Positions 25,740 through 35,291 of a DNA stretch of 64,000 nucleotides are shown here, in pieces (the first letter of the stretch is position 1; every line of letters starts with the position of its first letter). Both the position numbers and the translations under genes were made by a program. Under the pieces are notes generated by a model that worked only from the letters and a program-made list of their open reading frames with translations, searched no databases and had not been told where the DNA came from. Source of the stretch: Pyrococcus yayanosii CH1 (GTDB taxonomy: Archaea; Methanobacteriota_B; Thermococci; Thermococcales; Thermococcaceae); the NCBI RefSeq assembly GCF_000215995.1, contig NC_015680.1, positions 1,054,001 through 1,118,000 on the forward strand, written 5' to 3'.

Positions 25740-25817
25740 GGGCCGGTAGCTCAGCCTGGTCAGAGCGCCGGGCTTTTAACCCGGCGGTCGCGGGTTCAAA
25801 TCCCGCCCGGCCCGCCA
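25740..25817 (+). tRNA. tRNA-Lys (anticodon TTT)
   Basis: Full cloverleaf: acceptor GGGCCGG pairs with CCGGCCC, the anticodon arm is CGGG-CTTTTAA-CCCG (anticodon TTT), and the T arm is GCGGG-TTCAAAT-CCCGC. CCA is encoded. TATA-like GCTTATAAAAC lies about 28 bases upstream. Confidence 0.97.
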
Positions 25818-25865
25818 TCATGGTAAAACTTAAAAACCCACTTTTATAGACTATCTCTTGGACGT

Positions 25866-25941
25866 AGCCCCGTGGTGTAGCGGCCAAGCATGCGGGACTC
25901 TGGATCCCGCGACCGGGGTTCGAATCCCCGCGGGGCTACCA
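25866..25941 (+). tRNA. tRNA-Gln (anticodon CTG)
   Basis: Acceptor AGCCCCG pairs with CGGGGCT, the anticodon arm is CGGGA-CTCTGGA-TCCCG (anticodon CTG), and the T arm is CCGGGG-TTCGAAT-CCCCG-like. CCA is encoded. CTTTTATAG about 22 bases upstream is the promoter, so it is transcribed separately from tRNA-Lys. Confidence 0.96.
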
Positions 25942-26025: not shown

Positions 26026-26487
26026 ATGATATTACCTCTTTCCTCCGCAGGTCTTATGAGTTCACCTTCTTCTATGATACTTGGGAATGATCGGAGAACT
26101 TGGATTATTGAATTTCTCCAGAAGAACGGTAAAGAGGCCGAAATAAGTGAGCTCGTTGATTATATTACCAAAATCGAAGGGAACACAAGCAGAAGACACA
26201 GGAAGAGTGTTTACGTGAGCCTTGTTCAGACCCATCTTCCAAAGCTTAAGAGGGAGGGCATAGTGGAGATCAAGAGAGGAACAATAAGGCTACTCCAGGT
26301 TCCCGATGATGTTAATGCGTATATTGTTGTAAGGAAAAAGAAAAATATATGGGCTATGGCTTATGCCCTTCTTGCATCCATATCACTCATAGGAGCCGCT
26401 TTGAAAGTAAACCCTGAAGGAGTCATGATATCCTTGGCATTCTTGGCGCTTTCGCTTTTCCACTGGGCCAAGACATCGCACGCCTGA
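26026..26487 (+). CDS. HTH protein with C-terminal membrane helices (DUF7344-like)
   Basis: 153 residues. The N-terminal part (TWIIEFLQKNGKEAEISELV, HRKSVYVSLVQTHLPKLKRE, GIVEIKRGTIRL) matches the DUF7344-type winged helix of archaeal regulators. It is followed by two membrane helices (MAYALLASISLIGAALKV and GVMISLAFLALSLFHWA). It lies directly upstream of the DUF1102/signal-peptidase locus on the same strand and is a candidate local regulator. The start is uncertain between early ATG codons. Confidence 0.7.
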   Translation: MILPLSSAGLMSSPSSMILGNDRRTWIIEFLQKNGKEAEISELVDYITKIEGNTSRRHRKSVYVSLVQTHLPKLKREGIVEIKRGTIRLLQVPDDVNAYIVVRKKKNIWAMAYALLASISLIGAALKVNPEGVMISLAFLALSLFHWAKTSHA

Positions 26488-26544
26488 TACCTTCTGATCT
26501 GCTCTGGCTGGTAATTGATTATTATCTCTCGGGAAAGGCCCAAC

Positions 26545-26600
26545 TACCTAAGTATTCAGAGTTACCTAAGTTTGGTTTAGGACTCACGATATGTGGGTCC
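26545..26600 (+). promoter_or_regulatory. Direct repeat and near-palindrome before the DUF1102 operon
   Basis: TACCTAAGT occurs at 26545-26553 and again at 26563-26571, 18 bases apart. GGACTCAC (26580-26587) and GTGGGTCC (26593-26600) form a 7-of-8 inverted repeat just before the first DUF1102 start. No other good TATA element is visible in the gap. These look like operator sites for a dedicated regulator. Confidence 0.45.
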
Positions 26601-26615
26601 TGAGAAAGCGAGGAG

Positions 26616-27224
26616 ATGGAAAATTTGAACAAACTTGCCCTTGGAGTATTTGGCCTTTTGGCCACGTTCGGTCTCGTGCTCGGCGCGGGGGCGAACTTTA
26701 GTGACTACAACGCCAGCAGAAGTTTCCACTGGGACATAGTCACGGACGATACCGAGCTAATAGACCTTGTTGCCATTCAGCCCTACTCTTACATCAACGG
26801 AGACGGCCTTCTGACGATTGACTTCTCGGCCAATAACCCTAACTATCCGGGATACGGGGATGGTATAAGCCCCTCAAGTGAATACAACTTCGACGAAGTC
26901 TTCGGAGTCAGCAACCACCTTTGGGAAAATATGCCAATAGTCGTCGAAATACAGTCGAGCAGCACTAATGTGGAGTTCTACGGCCATGAAGGGGACGTTT
27001 ACTCAGCTTATGATGGAAGCCTAGCGAGTTCAAGCGACTATGCTAGGGACTGGGTATGCTTCGTTGTCATGCCTGGAGACACTGTTAAGATAGGAATCGA
27101 CCTCAGCGCCAACGGGGACAGCCCTAATGACGTATGGATCGAAGCTATGACAATCAAAGCTTACAGGCTCGGCACGGAGCCGCCGGAGCTCGTCGGTAAG
27201 TGCGGGCAACCTAGGGGGGTTTGA
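26616..27224 (+). CDS. DUF1102-type exported protein 1 (putative surface filament subunit)
   Basis: 202 residues. A SipW-type signal sequence (LALGVFGLLATFGLVLGAGA) precedes the mature start NFSDYNASR, and the acidic, aromatic mature domain shares IDFSANNPNYPGYGDGISPS with its neighbour. There are two Cys at the C-terminal region. DUF1102 proteins resemble TasA/CalY-like subunits, so a role as a secreted filament or sheath protein is an inference. GAGGAG abuts the ATG; a TTG three codons later has better spacing. Function is not demonstrated. Confidence 0.7.
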   Translation: MENLNKLALGVFGLLATFGLVLGAGANFSDYNASRSFHWDIVTDDTELIDLVAIQPYSYINGDGLLTIDFSANNPNYPGYGDGISPSSEYNFDEVFGVSNHLWENMPIVVEIQSSSTNVEFYGHEGDVYSAYDGSLASSSDYARDWVCFVVMPGDTVKIGIDLSANGDSPNDVWIEAMTIKAYRLGTEPPELVGKCGQPRGV

Positions 27225-27226
27225 AA

Positions 27227-27757
27227 ATGAATAAATTCTTTGGAATGGCCCTGCTTCTCGCAGGAATGATGCTTGCAGTTGGCACGGGAGCCAACTTTAG
27301 ATACTACGAGGCGAGCAGGGACATAACGGTGGACATAGTTGGGGACGACAACGAGTTTATAGACCTAACACCGCTTCAGCCCTATGCAATCTTAAGCAAC
27401 GGAAAGCTTGTAATAGACTTTTCGGCCAACAACCCCAACTATCCAGGATACGGGGACGGCATGAGTCCGAACACAACATATGTCTTTGAAGAGGTCTTTG
27501 AAGTTAGCAACGAGCTCTGGGAAAACGAGGACGGAGACTATCCTATATGCGTAACAATCAGTGCCGTGCATCCGAACATTCAGATATTTGCTGGGGACTA
27601 CGACTCTCCAATCGCTGGGCCAGGAAGCTCAATAAGCGTGACCGTCTACCATGGAAGTCCAGTTCCTATAGGCTTTATATTCGACAACACAAACGCGGCT
27701 CTAGGCAGCTATCAGTTTCAGCTGCAGATAGATGCAGTTGCAGGAGCTTGTCAGTGA
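27227..27757 (+). CDS. DUF1102-type exported protein 2
   Basis: 176-residue paralogue of the preceding protein. It has a signal sequence (FFGMALLLAGMMLAVGTGA), then NFRYYEASRDITVDIV, and repeats IDFSANNPNYPGYGDGMSPN almost exactly. The mature part is a likely immunoglobulin-like or jelly-roll beta domain with VYHGSPVPIGFIFDN near the end. GGGGGGTTT lies before the ATG, two bases after the first gene's stop. Two similar subunits in tandem suit a filament with major and minor components. Confidence 0.7.
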   Translation: MNKFFGMALLLAGMMLAVGTGANFRYYEASRDITVDIVGDDNEFIDLTPLQPYAILSNGKLVIDFSANNPNYPGYGDGMSPNTTYVFEEVFEVSNELWENEDGDYPICVTISAVHPNIQIFAGDYDSPIAGPGSSISVTVYHGSPVPIGFIFDNTNAALGSYQFQLQIDAVAGACQ

Positions 27758-27801
27758 AATGGGGGATTTTCCCCCAAATAAATTTCTGGTGATGAGAGAT
27801 T

Positions 27802-28806
27802 ATGAGAATCGTGGAGGTCGCCATTACGCTCGCCGTGTTTATCTTTGTAACGGCATCCGCTACTGGTTTCATTCTTGGAAGGCCCCTCTTTGTCTCCTAC
27901 GTTTACTCGGATAGCATGAAACCAACGCTGGAACAATGGGACCTTTTCTTCATAAACCCTCTATCTAAAGGGGATGTTGGAGACATAATCGTCTTCAAGC
28001 TTGACGGAAAGTGGGTAGTCCACAGAATATACGCGATAAGCGGAGAGGGCTACATAACCAAGGGAGACAACAACGTGGCAACCGATCAGCAGGATGGGAA
28101 AGCAGAGCCGATAAAAAGGGGAGACGTGGCGGGCAAGGTAATAACAATCGGAGGGAAACCTCTTAAGATACCAAGGGCTGGAAAGCACCTGAACTCACCT
28201 TATGTCGCCGTTGGGCTGGTCCTTTTTGGGACAATTCTCCTGACTACCGGAGGAAAGAAAAGCAGAAAGTCCCGTAAATCCCGTAGGAGGTTCCTGACGA
28301 TCAGCTTCAACACCCTCTACGGCCTCATATCCACCATACTCCTCCTCATGTTTGTATTTTCCACGATGCTGTCATGGGGAACCATCGGAATAGGCTATGC
28401 CTCAACGGCGGCGGGTGGGCAAAGGGAAGGGTGGTATCTCCCAGGCTCAACTTTCACGGAGAACATCACCGTGGAAAACAGGGGCCTGTATCCACTCCTC
28501 TTCATCCTTGAGGGAAATGGCATTGGAGAGGACAGTGCTTTCATGCTCTTTAAGGGGGAATCTAAGGACGTGCCAGTTACGGTGAAGGTTCCAGAGGAGA
28601 CAAGAGTGTACAGAGAAAACGTGCACGTTTATGCCTTCATACCAATCCTTCCAGCAAGCACCATAGAGAAACTATACGGAGTAAGTCCTTACCTACCTAT
28701 TGCCGTCCAGATAGCTGAACTGAGCGTCCTCCTGACACTCCTAAGGCTGGCAATAGGGGAAGGAGAGCCAATTAGGATTAAATCACCGAGAACTTTATGG
28801 AGCTGA
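27802..28806 (+). CDS. SipW/S26B-type signal peptidase with C-terminal extension
   Basis: 334 residues. The N-terminal half is an archaeal/SipW signal peptidase I with a membrane anchor and catalytic residues S38 (YSDSMKPTL), H74 (WVVHRIYAI) and D89 (ITKGDNN). After a helix (VGLVLFGTILLTTGG), a Lys/Arg-rich loop and a second helix comes an extra outside domain (LPGSTFTENITVENRG...), giving a length well above a plain S26B enzyme. It is the likely processor of the DUF1102 proteins just upstream. GGTGATGAG precedes the ATG. Confidence 0.88.
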   Translation: MRIVEVAITLAVFIFVTASATGFILGRPLFVSYVYSDSMKPTLEQWDLFFINPLSKGDVGDIIVFKLDGKWVVHRIYAISGEGYITKGDNNVATDQQDGKAEPIKRGDVAGKVITIGGKPLKIPRAGKHLNSPYVAVGLVLFGTILLTTGGKKSRKSRKSRRRFLTISFNTLYGLISTILLLMFVFSTMLSWGTIGIGYASTAAGGQREGWYLPGSTFTENITVENRGLYPLLFILEGNGIGEDSAFMLFKGESKDVPVTVKVPEETRVYRENVHVYAFIPILPASTIEKLYGVSPYLPIAVQIAELSVLLTLLRLAIGEGEPIRIKSPRTLWS

Positions 28807-28811
28807 TTTGG

Positions 28812-29222
28812 ATGAGATACGCTGGATTTATCCTACTCCTAATAGTTGCAGGGATATTCGCCCTCGGTTCTAGGGGCAGCTTTACAGAGTATAACGCTAA
28901 AAGAGCAATCACAGTGCCCGTAGGGAGAAATGCATACATCGAATTTGAGTGCAATAACACCATCATCAGAGTCATCAACAATATGGATGTGCCAATTTCA
29001 GCCAAAGTCGTGGCAAGCTGTTCCCCAGAGCTAAACTGCCATTGGGAAGAGGCCACGATTCTGCCGGGAGAAAGCAAGGAGCTAAAGGGAACCGTAACTG
29101 GGCTTCCCGGCACCTACCAAATTCCCCTGACCATTATAGCCAGATGGAATGGTGGGGATGCCAAAATAACCGCCTGCAGAATAGAAGTAACCATAGAGAA
29201 GGGTGATGACTATGAACGCTGA
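28812..29222 (+). CDS. Small exported protein sharing the DUF1102 mature start
   Basis: 136 residues with signal sequence MRYAGFILLLIVAGIFALGS and mature GSFTEYNAKRAITVPVG, matching the F-xx-Y-N/E-A-x-R pattern of both DUF1102 neighbours. The rest is a short beta domain with three Cys (SCSPELNC, KITACRIEV). It overlaps the signal peptidase 3' region closely. I prefer the second ATG; an earlier in-frame ATG five codons upstream overlaps the peptidase coding end more and has no ribosome binding site. Confidence 0.65.
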   Translation: MRYAGFILLLIVAGIFALGSRGSFTEYNAKRAITVPVGRNAYIEFECNNTIIRVINNMDVPISAKVVASCSPELNCHWEEATILPGESKELKGTVTGLPGTYQIPLTIIARWNGGDAKITACRIEVTIEKGDDYER

Positions 29223-30147
29223 GACTAAGAGAATCCTCGCATTCATCAGCGCGAGCCTCTTCGTGACTTTCATGCTTCTTTCGATAGTTGCCTACACTAG
29301 GGATCCCATAAGGGAAGAGGACAGACTCATGGGCATGGTAGTTCAAACGGCGGCCTTCACTCATGAGGGGCACTTTACCAACTCAACCGTTTATGGGGAG
29401 AGGGCTTCCCTTAAAAACTACCCCACAGGAATCACGGATGCGATATACGGAAGGTACACCTACACAGTATCCCCCGTGCTGACGGGAAGATATGAGCTTC
29501 AGGGCATAGTGACATACTTCGTTACAAAGGGCGGCGAGAGAATCGTGCTTTTTAACGAGACGCTTTTCAAGTACAGTGGAGCATTCGAAGATGGGGGCTT
29601 CACAAGGGTCGTTTACTTCAATCTCACGAAAATTGATGAGAGACGTGATGAGCTCGCTAAGGCTCTCAAGCTCCCACGACTTTCCAGGGAAATATCAATG
29701 AAAGCTTTCGTCCAAGCGAGCGATGAAGAGTTCGCCCACGAAATCACCCTGGTTAGAGATTCGTCAACGGGCCTAACGAGCGTGGCAAATGCTGAGAAAG
29801 TTGTTAGGAAGAACATCGTTGACAGGATGTCAATTAAAAACGAGCTTCTCTTCATGAGCGTCAGCACCGCTAGAATTGTGTTTCCCCTCCTAGCTATCGC
29901 CTCCGGACTAATGTTCCTCTGGCTCTGGGATCCAAAGCCCCGGAAGAGAGGAACGCTGGAAGGCCGTCCTCATGGCATCGAGGCCAAGGTCTTCCTGAAC
30001 GATGAGAAAAGCTTGAAAAAAGTTGCAAACCTTACGGGGAACCCGATATTCCACTATAGGGTGGATGGCACCGACGTTTACGGCGTTGTGGACGGACAGG
30101 TTATCTATGAATATAGGGAAAGAGCTCGAGGAAGTGGGGAATCCTGA
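29212..30147 (+). CDS. DUF5305 membrane protein
   Basis: 311 residues, resembling DUF5305. An N-terminal helix (ILAFISASLFVTFMLLSIVA) is followed by a large extracytoplasmic beta region and a second helix near 225-245 (FPLLAIASGLMFLWLW). A cytoplasmic tail ends in MTYHYR-like segments (NLTGNPIFHYRVDGTDVYGV). It overlaps the previous stop codon (GGTGATGACTATGAA), so it is translationally coupled to the exported-protein genes. A membrane assembly or anchoring role is inferred from location only. Confidence 0.7.
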   Translation: MNAETKRILAFISASLFVTFMLLSIVAYTRDPIREEDRLMGMVVQTAAFTHEGHFTNSTVYGERASLKNYPTGITDAIYGRYTYTVSPVLTGRYELQGIVTYFVTKGGERIVLFNETLFKYSGAFEDGGFTRVVYFNLTKIDERRDELAKALKLPRLSREISMKAFVQASDEEFAHEITLVRDSSTGLTSVANAEKVVRKNIVDRMSIKNELLFMSVSTARIVFPLLAIASGLMFLWLWDPKPRKRGTLEGRPHGIEAKVFLNDEKSLKKVANLTGNPIFHYRVDGTDVYGVVDGQVIYEYRERARGSGES

Positions 30148-31569: not shown

Positions 31570-33579
31570 TTAGCTCTTCCTCGCCCTCCACCATGCGTAT
31601 AGTATCACGGCGCCTGCTCCAGCGGCCGCCCCAAGACCCAGGAATAACAGCTTCGTCCCGAGCGGAGCGTAGGGAACGGTCACCGTGGTTGTCGTCGTAG
31701 CGGTTGCCGTCCGCTTGACCGTCTGGGTAATCGTGAGCGTCGTGGTATTCGTGACCGTTGTAGTTAAATACTTCCCTACGGTCTCCGTCACGGTTGTTGC
31801 GGGAGCTTGGACAACTCTTTCATCAGCCTTCACCTCAAGCTCTGCCCTCCCCGTTCCAGCAGGGCCCCCCAGCGTATCTACGATTGCCGTTACGTTATAT
31901 ATGCCAGGACTCACGGCCACGAGGGTTACGTTGCCCAACCACTCTTCGCCGGGGGATAAGGAGAGTGGTATCACAACCCACTTCTCAAGGAGGGAGCTAC
32001 CATTTACGAGACCAAAGCCCGGTGGAAGATTCAGAGTAAGATTAGCGGGTATAGCTACGTTGCCCGCGTTCTTCACCTTTAGGCTGGCTACGAAGGGTTC
32101 GCCGGCCCTCACAACCTCCGGGAGCGTCAGCTCCACGGTGTAAGTTACGTGAGCGGGAGTTACTGTGATGATAGGCGAGTTGGAGTAAAATTCTAGCTGG
32201 TCGCAACCCCCGCAGACGAGTGGATAGGGAATTGGAACGAGGGCCCTCACATTTCCAACCTCAAGTACTCCCGATTTCAGGGCCCTGACATGGACGATTA
32301 GGGTTTTCTCCTCGCCCGGCTTTAGAGATTCAAGGAAGAGGCAACCGACACACTCATCCAGAACCTCGATGCCATTGCCAGGCATGAAGTATAGTTTTAC
32401 GTTGAATAACCTGTCCTCCCCCACGTTCTTCACGCGGATAGTTAAGGGGAATTTCTCGTACTGGGTGACGTTCTTGGGACCCTCAAGGGAGATGTTTAAC
32501 CACGCGAAGTGCTCCAGCTTAGGCTTGAGGGCAGGGTCGTAGAAGGCAATGATATGGAGCCTGACGCCCTTTGCGTCCGTTTCTGTCCCCACTATTCCTA
32601 GGTCAAGGCCACCGTAGCCAAGCCCTTTGATGACCCTGCTCTCAATGGGCAGGTACTTCGCAACCAAGATATCACCGCACAGGTTCCTTATGCTGATGTA
32701 TGCAAGCCCTCCCTCGCTTCCCTCCGCCCTTATCAAGTAGGGTCCTATCCTGTAGTCTTGTCCCACGTAGAGCCAAAAGTCGTAATCAGGATTCCTTTCG
32801 ACACGTATTATCGCCCCGCGAAGGTGCACTTCGAGGAAGATTATCGGATTGCAGATGTTGTCTGTGTACTCACACACTATCCTCTTGACGTCCACCCTGA
32901 AAGGCCCGACATCCCCAGAAGAGCCTTCAGGAATTTCATACGTGGAGCCATTAAACTCCATGATGACGGAATTAACGAGCTCTCCATTGAGGCCCGTGGT
33001 GTTAACGCTTACCACCTTGAGAACCATCGAGTAATAGGTTATCTCATCCCCAACTCGCACGTTGCCTGAGAAGACGAGGGGATAGGGGTCAACGGTCACC
33101 CTATAGCCTGCAAAGGTAAACGACTTCGTGGAGAAGGTCTTAGTCGTCTCGCCGTCCGAGGCGGTTATCGAGAACCCCGTAGGCCCAACACTCGTTAGCA
33201 TGAAGCTAACAGGCCCAACGCTCACCGACTGGCCCACGAGGATTGGAGGGAAGGTCACGTTCGCCAAAATGTAATTCTTACCTGCCAGAAGAATTCTCTC
33301 GATATCTATGCTAAGATTACCGAAGGGTATGTATTCACAATCCGCGTTGGGACACAGACCGAAGAGCTCTCTCTTACCCGGCATTATTGACTTATAGACC
33401 ACCCTATCTCCATATGTTATCTTGACAAGCACGCTTCCATCGAGACTGACGTCAAGGAAGGAAACTGAATACTCGCCTAAGATCATGTCTATCGGGACGG
33501 TAACCCAGACCGCTAGCCCAGATGCGAGGACACCCGGGGTCGTTAAGAGAAGGAACAATACCAAAAACATCCTCTTCAT
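31570..33579 (-). CDS. Surface protein with Thr-rich stalk and C-terminal membrane anchor
   Basis: 669 residues. A signal peptide (FLVLFLLLTTPGVLA) leads to repeated beta domains, including a CARDB-like unit (AGEPFVASLKVKNAGNVAIP). A Thr-rich stalk (TTVTNTTTLTITQTVKR and TATATTTTTVTVP) and a C-terminal helix (LLFLGLGAAAGAGAVILYAW) with a basic tail anchor it. The ATG follows GGGGTGAGCGAT and overlaps the flaJ stop region, so it is the last gene of the archaellum operon. An S-layer-associated or stator-like role is speculative. Confidence 0.75.
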   Translation of the reverse strand: MKRMFLVLFLLLTTPGVLASGLAVWVTVPIDMILGEYSVSFLDVSLDGSVLVKITYGDRVVYKSIMPGKRELFGLCPNADCEYIPFGNLSIDIERILLAGKNYILANVTFPPILVGQSVSVGPVSFMLTSVGPTGFSITASDGETTKTFSTKSFTFAGYRVTVDPYPLVFSGNVRVGDEITYYSMVLKVVSVNTTGLNGELVNSVIMEFNGSTYEIPEGSSGDVGPFRVDVKRIVCEYTDNICNPIIFLEVHLRGAIIRVERNPDYDFWLYVGQDYRIGPYLIRAEGSEGGLAYISIRNLCGDILVAKYLPIESRVIKGLGYGGLDLGIVGTETDAKGVRLHIIAFYDPALKPKLEHFAWLNISLEGPKNVTQYEKFPLTIRVKNVGEDRLFNVKLYFMPGNGIEVLDECVGCLFLESLKPGEEKTLIVHVRALKSGVLEVGNVRALVPIPYPLVCGGCDQLEFYSNSPIITVTPAHVTYTVELTLPEVVRAGEPFVASLKVKNAGNVAIPANLTLNLPPGFGLVNGSSLLEKWVVIPLSLSPGEEWLGNVTLVAVSPGIYNVTAIVDTLGGPAGTGRAELEVKADERVVQAPATTVTETVGKYLTTTVTNTTTLTITQTVKRTATATTTTTVTVPYAPLGTKLLFLGLGAAAGAGAVILYAWWRARKS

Positions 33580-33584
33580 ATCGC

Positions 33585-35291
33585 TCACCCCAGTAGCCAG
33601 AGTATTGCCTCGCCTCCCCCAAGGTTCATGAACTTAGCCATCAGGTGTTGGCCCAAGTACATTCCCGCCGCGAAGACCCAGAGGAGGATTACGAAGTAGT
33701 AGAGGGAGCCAAGGATGTGACCGCCATCAGCCACCTTAATGGCCATCGCCGAGAGCAGGGAATGAGTTACCATGAGAACCAGCATCACGAGGCTGAGCAT
33801 CGCCATGCCACTGGGTGGTATCACATGAATGATGTCCCCTATGTACTCGGTGGGCACCTCAAGCTTGCCGAATAGATCGTTTATGGAAACGGCCACTTGG
33901 AAGGATGCTGCTATGGAGAATGCAAACGCTCCCGTGAGGCCGAGAATTATGCCGAGGAAGTTCGAAACGCTCTGTTGCCTCTTCCTCCTAAGGCGAACGA
34001 GCCTCTCAAAGTTCCTGCTGATTACTTTGCCAACGTAGTCCGGTTCGGCACCGAGTCTAAGGCTCTCCCTAAAAATTTCCGAGAATATCCCTATGAGCCA
34101 GCTACCGGTCTCAGCTATAAAGAAGTCCCAAGCCCTCTGCGGGTCGACCCTAACGGCCAGCCTGCGGTAAAGGGACTTTATGTCCTCGGTGAGCGTTCCA
34201 AAGTCATGGGCGCTAAGGTATTTCAAGACAAGAAGCAGGGAAGCACCGCTCGCAGCCAAGGAGGAGGAAAGGCTTCTTATGAAGGCGGGGAAGTTCTCAT
34301 CCTTCCTAAATATTGCCGCCTCCTCCCTCCTAACGACATTGCCAACATAGGCGAGGGGAGTTAGGGTGAGGGCCACCACAAAGGGCGTTGGTATTGGAAA
34401 GCGGGGCCTGATGATTAAGTAATAGGCGAGGCCAACTATTGGAATGGCAATAAGAGAGTATATTAAGGCCCTCCTTATCCTCCTCTGTCTCGGCGTTTCA
34501 ACTTTCACTTCCGCCCATATTGGATCCTCGGGCATGCGATATTTTATGACCAGGAGGGCACCCACCTCAGCCGCCACTATGAGGAAGAGAAGGTATAAGG
34601 CCAGCCTCCCAATGTCTTGGGCTGTTATCAGGGGCCCAATGATTATGAAAGCGGCGGCAAAGACCACGGAGATTATTATTGACTCATAGATTTCCTTAAA
34701 GATGTCAAGGTCGTAGAGGGCGCCCTCGTAGAATGTCTGGTAGTCATCCATAACTGTCTGCTGCTCCTGGAAGAGATACTCCTTCAGGTCAACGCCGCTG
34801 TCAAGGGAATAAGCCAGCCGGTCAAGGAAATCTGAGAACACCCTGCTTGGAGTTCTTCTCGCGAGGAAGCGGAAGGCCTCTGGGAGGGAGCGGTGAAGCT
34901 TGTCAACTATTATGTAAACCTTCTTGAGCTCGCTGGCTATAGCACCAAGCTTAGGGTCACTCGAGAGAACCTTGAGGAGGTCGCTCCTGCCTATCTCGCT
35001 CGTCGAAAGGACAGCGAAGTACGTTATGAAGTAGGGGAGCTTGGAGTTAATTGATATCTTCTTCGAATCGGCCATGAGGTAGGGGTATGCCACGGCGTAG
35101 ATGATAATGATAGTCGGGATGAGATACATGAATATTCTGAGGCCGAGAGGAAGAACGAAGAATCGAGTGAATACCATTATCGCCATGAAGATTATGAGGG
35201 AGCCAAATATGCTGGGGATGAGTATCCTGCGCACGTATTCCTTCGGGGACACGTCTGACTTAACGAAGATGCTGATATTCTCTTCCGGCAT
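33585..35291 (-). CDS. flaJ: Archaellum membrane platform FlaJ/ArlJ
   Basis: 568-residue polytopic membrane protein homologous to type IV pilus TadC/PilC, and the platform on which the FlaI motor acts. Helices cluster near the N-terminus (SLIIFMAIMVFTRFFVLPLG), the middle and C-terminus, with two cytoplasmic GspF-like regions. GAGGTGGTGGTAACA precedes the ATG, chosen over an in-frame GTG four codons upstream that overlaps this site. The stop overlaps the Thr-stalk gene's ribosome binding site. Confidence 0.93.
   Translation of the reverse strand: MPEENISIFVKSDVSPKEYVRRILIPSIFGSLIIFMAIMVFTRFFVLPLGLRIFMYLIPTIIIIYAVAYPYLMADSKKISINSKLPYFITYFAVLSTSEIGRSDLLKVLSSDPKLGAIASELKKVYIIVDKLHRSLPEAFRFLARRTPSRVFSDFLDRLAYSLDSGVDLKEYLFQEQQTVMDDYQTFYEGALYDLDIFKEIYESIIISVVFAAAFIIIGPLITAQDIGRLALYLLFLIVAAEVGALLVIKYRMPEDPIWAEVKVETPRQRRIRRALIYSLIAIPIVGLAYYLIIRPRFPIPTPFVVALTLTPLAYVGNVVRREEAAIFRKDENFPAFIRSLSSSLAASGASLLLVLKYLSAHDFGTLTEDIKSLYRRLAVRVDPQRAWDFFIAETGSWLIGIFSEIFRESLRLGAEPDYVGKVISRNFERLVRLRRKRQQSVSNFLGIILGLTGAFAFSIAASFQVAVSINDLFGKLEVPTEYIGDIIHVIPPSGMAMLSLVMLVLMVTHSLLSAMAIKVADGGHILGSLYYFVILLWVFAAGMYLGQHLMAKFMNLGGGEAILWLLG

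Follow-up and report, generated by a model that had tools for sequence, protein, structure and literature searches.

Archaeal pili built with donor strands are already known from AbpA and from the threads (PMC9715654, PMC9674648). The threads of Sulfolobus (Saci_0406) are non-type-IV, donor-strand filaments processed by signal peptidase I, and their mature protein starts with Asp and carries a YYY motif (PMC9715654). In the Bacillus TasA system, the tapA gene overlaps sipW (PMC10151520). The locus analyzed here lies in a 64,000-nucleotide stretch of the Pyrococcus yayanosii CH1 genome (the window) and encodes two exported DUF1102 proteins beside a signal peptidase. Its gene content, its synteny, its homology to a haloarchaeal locus that holds a solved pilin, and a fold similarity to AbpA point to a locus that builds a thin, non-type-IV surface pilus from DUF1102 subunits with a neighboring, dedicated signal peptidase, to which we assign a probability of roughly 80%. 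A haloarchaeal pilin of the same gene family is already known; new here are the connection drawn among these loci, the presence in many relatives of a third DUF1102 gene whose product has no strand motif, and, 5' of the first subunit gene, a conserved inverted repeat with a TATA element.

Operon, N-terminal motif and signal peptidase

Six open reading frames (ORFs), all intact on inspection, were found at window positions 26026-30147 on the + strand. The features of the locus are as follows:

26026..26487, + strand: HTH (helix-turn-helix), a membrane-anchored winged-helix protein of DUF7344 (PF24035, E 8e-17), candidate operon regulator
26488..26615, + strand: candidate promoter/operator region 5' of D1A, from the inverted repeat and TATA statistics in relatives
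26616..27224, + strand: D1A, exported DUF1102 subunit (PF06510, E 1e-50) with an AxA-type site and mature start NFSDYNASR
27227..27757, + strand: D1B, exported DUF1102 subunit (PF06510, E 7e-58) with mature start NFRYYEASR
27802..28806, + strand: SIP, S26 signal peptidase with S38/H74/D89 (TIGR02228, 8e-18), candidate dedicated peptidase and assembly platform
28797..29222, + strand: P5, small exported immunoglobulin (Ig)-like protein with mature start SFTEYNAKR (AlphaFold2 model)
29212..30147, + strand: P6, DUF5305-family membrane protein with an outside domain (family members match PF17231)

For D1B, the start ATG 27227 was favored over TTG 27221, and P6 was started at ATG 29212, with GTG 29203 also possible. 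The original prediction, which had been made from the sequence alone, described two DUF1102 subunits, as the PF06510 matches confirmed, in a one-strand arrangement with overlaps. The common strand and the SIP-P5 and P5-P6 overlaps were observed, but D1B and SIP are separated by 44 bp and the HTH gene and D1A by 128 bp.

Among the 78 Thermococcaceae and Archaeoglobi loci that were scored, 70 had the order D1-D1-(D1)-SIP-P5-P6, mostly headed by the HTH gene, and the exceptions were mainly loci cut by contig ends; the proposed check of synteny thus came out in favor of the original prediction. Median gaps in these relatives were 8 bp between D1A and D1B and -4 bp at each of the D1B-SIP, SIP-P5, and P5-P6 junctions. 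Of 115 Thermococci genomes, 87 had a DUF1102 match above the cut-off, and these 87 belong to a single family.

The window proteins (78 ORFs of at least 100 aa each) were scored for the strict motif [GASN]F-x2-[YF]-x-[AV]-x-R, which was found in D1A, D1B, and P5 only, the same three exported proteins for which a common mature start had been claimed. Among relatives, the relaxed form F-x2-[YFLV]-x3-R occurred in D1A (82/83) and P5 (64/77), and rarely or never in SIP (0/83), P6 (2/76), and HTH (1/67). By position, the motif was present in the first and second DUF1102 genes of all two-copy operons (42/42 for each) and all three-copy operons (33/33 for each), and in the third gene of 2/33. This third copy lies directly 5' of SIP, is without the strand motif in 31/33 operons (L070-L099, L111, L113, and others), and has a signal region with no obvious AxA site. 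D1A and D1B have one entire domain in common. P5, which received no family assignment in profile searches, matched the D1 profile with a probability of 96.4% when the N-terminal segment was included and 44.5% when it was left out, so that the protein previously described as a third look-alike resembles D1 mainly in the exported strand segment and not clearly in its body.

SIP scored 64.8 bits against the archaeal signal peptidase I model TIGR02228 (cut-off 51.85, E 8e-18), and matched the SipW model with E 6e-7, under the cut-off of 190 bits for that model. The catalytic residues named earlier, and the unusual outside extension, proved to be conserved: among 103 aligned sequences, Ser38 and His74 were invariant, Asp89 and Asp95 were each kept in 102, and the extension was kept in all. 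The extension would form an additional domain on the outside, flanked by two more membrane helices, and it is left uncovered by the 189 positions of the SipW model. Judged from the sequence, SIP would have its catalytic domain outside, a basic KKSRKSRKSRRR loop inside, and the extension outside. Full-length relatives of SIP occur in haloarchaea. A relationship of the extension to D1 or P5 was considered and rejected (profile probabilities of 5.7% and 24%, respectively).

The window P6 itself had no Pfam match, DUF5305 included, and its earlier assignment holds at the level of the family: 28 of 29 aligned members matched PF17231 (best 1e-15), and the P6 family profile matched haloarchaeal DUF5305 in a profile-profile comparison (98.2%, E 4e-14).

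By inspection, the signal peptides carry AxA-type sites and not class III sites, and profile annotation of the locus revealed no type IV pilus/archaellum ATPase or platform protein in the operon. A type IV pilus or archaellum identity was rejected on these grounds.

Fold matches and haloarchaeal relatives

D1B without its signal peptide was modeled by AlphaFold2 with a predicted local distance difference test (pLDDT) of 82.7 and a predicted TM-score (pTM) of 0.79, and residues 1-7 were disordered. In a Foldseek search with this model, the best of 350,542 PDB chains was 7UEG, which is AbpA of the Pyrobaculum calidifontis bundling pilus (E 9.3e-4, probability 1.00, TM 0.41/0.36), and FimA variants ranked next. 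The P5 model (pLDDT 81) also had residues 1-7 disordered and gave weak matches to PapD/MSP-like Ig folds. Together, the motif and the disorder of these residues in both models fit an N-terminal donor strand. The suggested likeness to AbpA is one of fold, at a TM of about 0.4; no sequence match was found. When D1A, D1B, and the D1 profile were searched against PDB sequences, nothing credible emerged; the structural link is hence drawn from fold prediction and from the haloarchaeal relatives.

The same module, comprising HTH, several DUF1102-like proteins, SIP with its extension, and DUF5305, was found on haloarchaeal plasmids and genomes. D1 matched the haloarchaeal proteins with a profile probability of 99.2% (98.7% for the bodies alone), and the haloarchaeal profile matched chain C of PDB entry 9P0A, annotated 'Pilin', along its length (1e-28). 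A search of haloarchaeal genomes with the 9P0A sequence identified one gene of 100% identity and four others of 70-92%. The locus of the identical gene includes HTH (7e-43), SIP (1e-82), and DUF5305 (4e-11), and all five loci (L238-L242) gave similar values (HTH about 1e-43, SIP 1e-81 to 1e-87, P6/DUF5305 1e-9 to 1e-12). Like the window, these loci encode a DUF7344 protein, a signal peptidase that bears the outer extension, and DUF5305; they also encode exported DUF1102-like proteins in which a GAF..R motif occurs, and in most of them a P5-like gene adjoins the HTH gene. Sequence identity is low. Unlike the window, they have genes partly on both strands and a signal region that begins with RR, whereas the locus in thermophiles is a single compact operon containing two copies of the shaft type.

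The Taf fimbriae (NCBIfam TafA, TafC, TafE, TafF) provided a second point of comparison. Curated TafA genes scored above cut-off in 22 of 294 haloarchaeal genomes, and the TafA loci that were fetched included SIP in 11/11, HTH in 11/11, and P6 in 9/11. D1 proteins matched TafA and TafE weakly, with TafA matched by 34 of 75 (best E 1.5e-6), and a profile search of the window's genome found no TafC. Given the AbpA fold match and a haloarchaeal module that holds both the solved pilin and TafA genes, the most likely identity of the locus is a Thermococcales form of a non-type-IV archaeal pilus.

The Bacillus TasA/TapA/SipW system resembles the locus in having a dedicated, endoplasmic reticulum (ER)-type signal peptidase adjoining secreted beta-sandwich subunits, and in the overlap of an accessory protein gene with the peptidase gene. 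That system is not known to have a DUF5305 or HTH partner. By sequence, a TasA/camelysin (PF12389) identity was rejected, as 3 of 75 family members matched (best E 0.14) and none of the window proteins did. The label 'thread' was abandoned as well: no thread structure appeared among the 50 fold matches listed for D1B, and the mature N-termini (NFSDY, NFRYY, SFTEY) have neither an Asp start nor YYY, which rules out a Sulfolobus thread identity.

Promoter region and distribution

The DUF7344 HTH family heads most of the relatives' operons and is present in the haloarchaeal loci (E about 1e-43). In relatives, the gap between HTH and D1A contains an inverted repeat GGTAAY..RTTACC, followed mostly after 27-28 bp by TATATA. 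The inverted repeat was found in 26 of 58 relatives (shuffles: mean 0.1, max 1) and the TATA element in 48 of 58 (shuffles: mean 3.7, max 9). We infer that the HTH protein binds the GGTAAY/RTTACC sites. The window promoter keeps half-sites at 26510 (GGTAAT) and 26561 (GTTACC), and TATATA is absent from the region 26488..26615. Within 26530-26615, AACTACCTAAGTATTC stands at the position where relatives read AACTACCTATATAC, and a second ACCTAAGT follows about 22 bp later. In the window species, the subunit promoter thus looks to have lost its TATA box, or to have it at a shifted position.

P5 varies among relatives. It is as short as 119-150 aa in some Pyrococcus and Archaeoglobi, and it is lengthened by DUF11-type repeats in Thermococcus (long forms DUF11 E 4.6e-9), with DUF11 found by Pfam in 14 of 32 P5 proteins. 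The C-terminal tails of Thermococcus P5 contain many Cys, His, Asp, and Glu residues and differ strongly between species (e.g., L073:5562-6950 and L087:5452-6387), and their composition reads as if they were metal-binding. DUF1102 domains also occurred in fusions. An Archaeoglobi-type genome carries a separate second operon with four DUF1102 copies (L200), in which one protein combines a DUF1102 with a VWA-like domain (L200:6695-8263, 522 aa). In L187, DUF1102-like N-termini are followed by TafC (6e-30), a NosD-type beta-helix, and a PGF-pre-PGF domain. In their domain make-up, these fusions and the DUF11-bearing P5 look like tip or adapter adhesins.

Archaeoglobi-labeled copies were up to 67% identical to D1B. 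In the Archaeoglobi/Geoglobus-labeled loci L113, L120-L122, and L124, the identity to the window D1B was 58-67%, which is high across classes and suggests that Thermococcales and Archaeoglobi have exchanged the operon, or that contigs of metagenome-assembled genomes are mislabeled. Of the 16 Thermococcaceae loci checked, 14 have the operon close to tRNA-Gln, and a mobile-element origin accordingly looks unlikely. In the window, tRNA-Lys and tRNA-Gln are located just upstream of the locus (25740-25941). A 672-aa surface protein with a Thr-rich stalk and a C-terminal membrane helix is encoded nearby on the minus strand (31570-33588).

Proposed assembly and its alternatives

The AbpA-first fold match, the conserved synteny, and the haloarchaeal solved-pilin locus support the central claim of the original prediction, namely that the locus is dedicated to secreting and assembling a filament other than the archaellum. 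D1A, D1B, and P5 would be exported, presumably via Sec, and cleaved by the neighboring ER-type SIP, which would free an N-terminal strand, F-x2-Y-x3-R. As in AbpA and TasA, the freed strand would probably complete the beta-sandwich of the DUF1102 subunit that follows; such an exchange is suggested by the motif, by the fold match, and by the disorder of this segment in the two models. The shaft would consist of D1A and D1B polymerized in this manner. P5 would be a tip or adapter that caps one end, in view of its strand motif, its differing Ig-like body, and the adhesive-type repeats in Thermococcus. Where present and without the strand motif, the third DUF1102 protein may terminate the fiber at the membrane, with P6 and the outer domain of SIP as putative membrane assembly parts and HTH as the candidate regulator of the promoter between its gene and D1A.

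A more specific version, which we regard as doubtful, is a fiber of fixed polarity: a donor-only P5 tip, a donor and acceptor shaft of D1A and D1B, and, in many species, an acceptor-only third copy held at the membrane as the base. The outer domain of SIP would pass each released donor strand directly to the growing base, thereby coupling cleavage to polymerization without chaperone, usher, or ATPase. A variant of the main reading, somewhat short of even odds, places P5 at the membrane and not at the distal tip: like TapA, it would act as a nucleator or chaperone whose strand caps the first subunit and whose PapD-like Ig body holds that subunit. The P5 gene overlaps the SIP gene as tapA does with sipW (PMC10151520), its weak fold matches are PapD-like folds that include fimbrial chaperones, and some Pyrococcus and Archaeoglobi forms have only the 119-150 aa noted above; however, these Ig matches are generic (TM 0.4-0.5), and the extra DUF11 repeats and variable tails of Thermococcus P5 are more adhesin-like.

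Several observations weigh against the pilus. The TM-score between D1B and AbpA is just 0.41/0.36 at an E of 9e-4, and because of these low values the membership of D1B in the fold is suggestive and not proven. TasA itself was absent among the 50 fold matches listed for D1B; of the TasA-like character originally proposed, the adjacent SipW-type peptidase was confirmed. The link between D1 and 9P0A goes via the haloarchaeal relatives: the D1 profile alone failed to reach 9P0A in the PDB search, and when D1 was compared directly with 9P0A as a single sequence, the match was weak (score 22.4, against 19.2 for the highest of 30 shuffles), although the alignment keeps register from the motif on. 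All Taf models remained below their curated cut-offs for the D1 family, with D1B at 15.6 bits against a TafA cut-off of 190. One relative, L082 (G101), is without both DUF1102 genes and keeps HTH, SIP, P5, and P6 intact, which suggests that SIP may have other substrates or that another subunit substitutes. The absence of the TATA box suggests that the window copy may be weakly expressed. Additionally, in the literature searched, no such filament was described for Thermococcales and no relevant paper appeared under the names DUF1102, DUF5305, or Taf, and a 2025 review of Thermococcales made no mention of pili, filaments, or biofilm.

Two explanations without a functional fiber were considered. 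D1A, D1B, and P5 could be SipW-type processed surface proteins, of a coat or ligand-binding kind, that do not polymerize and whose N-terminus is a peptidase recognition sequence only. Such a role would agree with a motif that is a cleavage-site segment common to proteins with different bodies, and the third DUF1102 copy, lacking it, may simply remain uncleaved. It is nonetheless unlikely, given that D1B matches the fold of AbpA, the same gene set surrounds a solved pilin, and the motif reaches well beyond the usual peptidase site into a segment that is disordered in both monomer models. Similarly, we consider it improbable that the locus survives in Pyrococcus yayanosii only as a silent or decaying remnant. 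The missing TATATA, in the face of a TATA element in most relatives, would fit decay, and two relatives do show it (L076 is decayed and L100 is a remnant), whereas all six window ORFs are intact and the catalytic residues are conserved.

The pilus reading unites DUF1102, DUF5305, DUF7344, and the extended signal peptidase as one pilus module across Thermococci, Archaeoglobi, and Halobacteria. It raises the question of how a donor-strand fiber may be assembled outside a single-membrane cell without an usher. It also predicts that Thermococcus kodakarensis and Pyrococcus furiosus, both genetically tractable, carry a second filament in addition to archaella. Since salt-loving archaea carry the same gene set around a solved pilin, the fiber can be sought in these well-studied heat-loving species.

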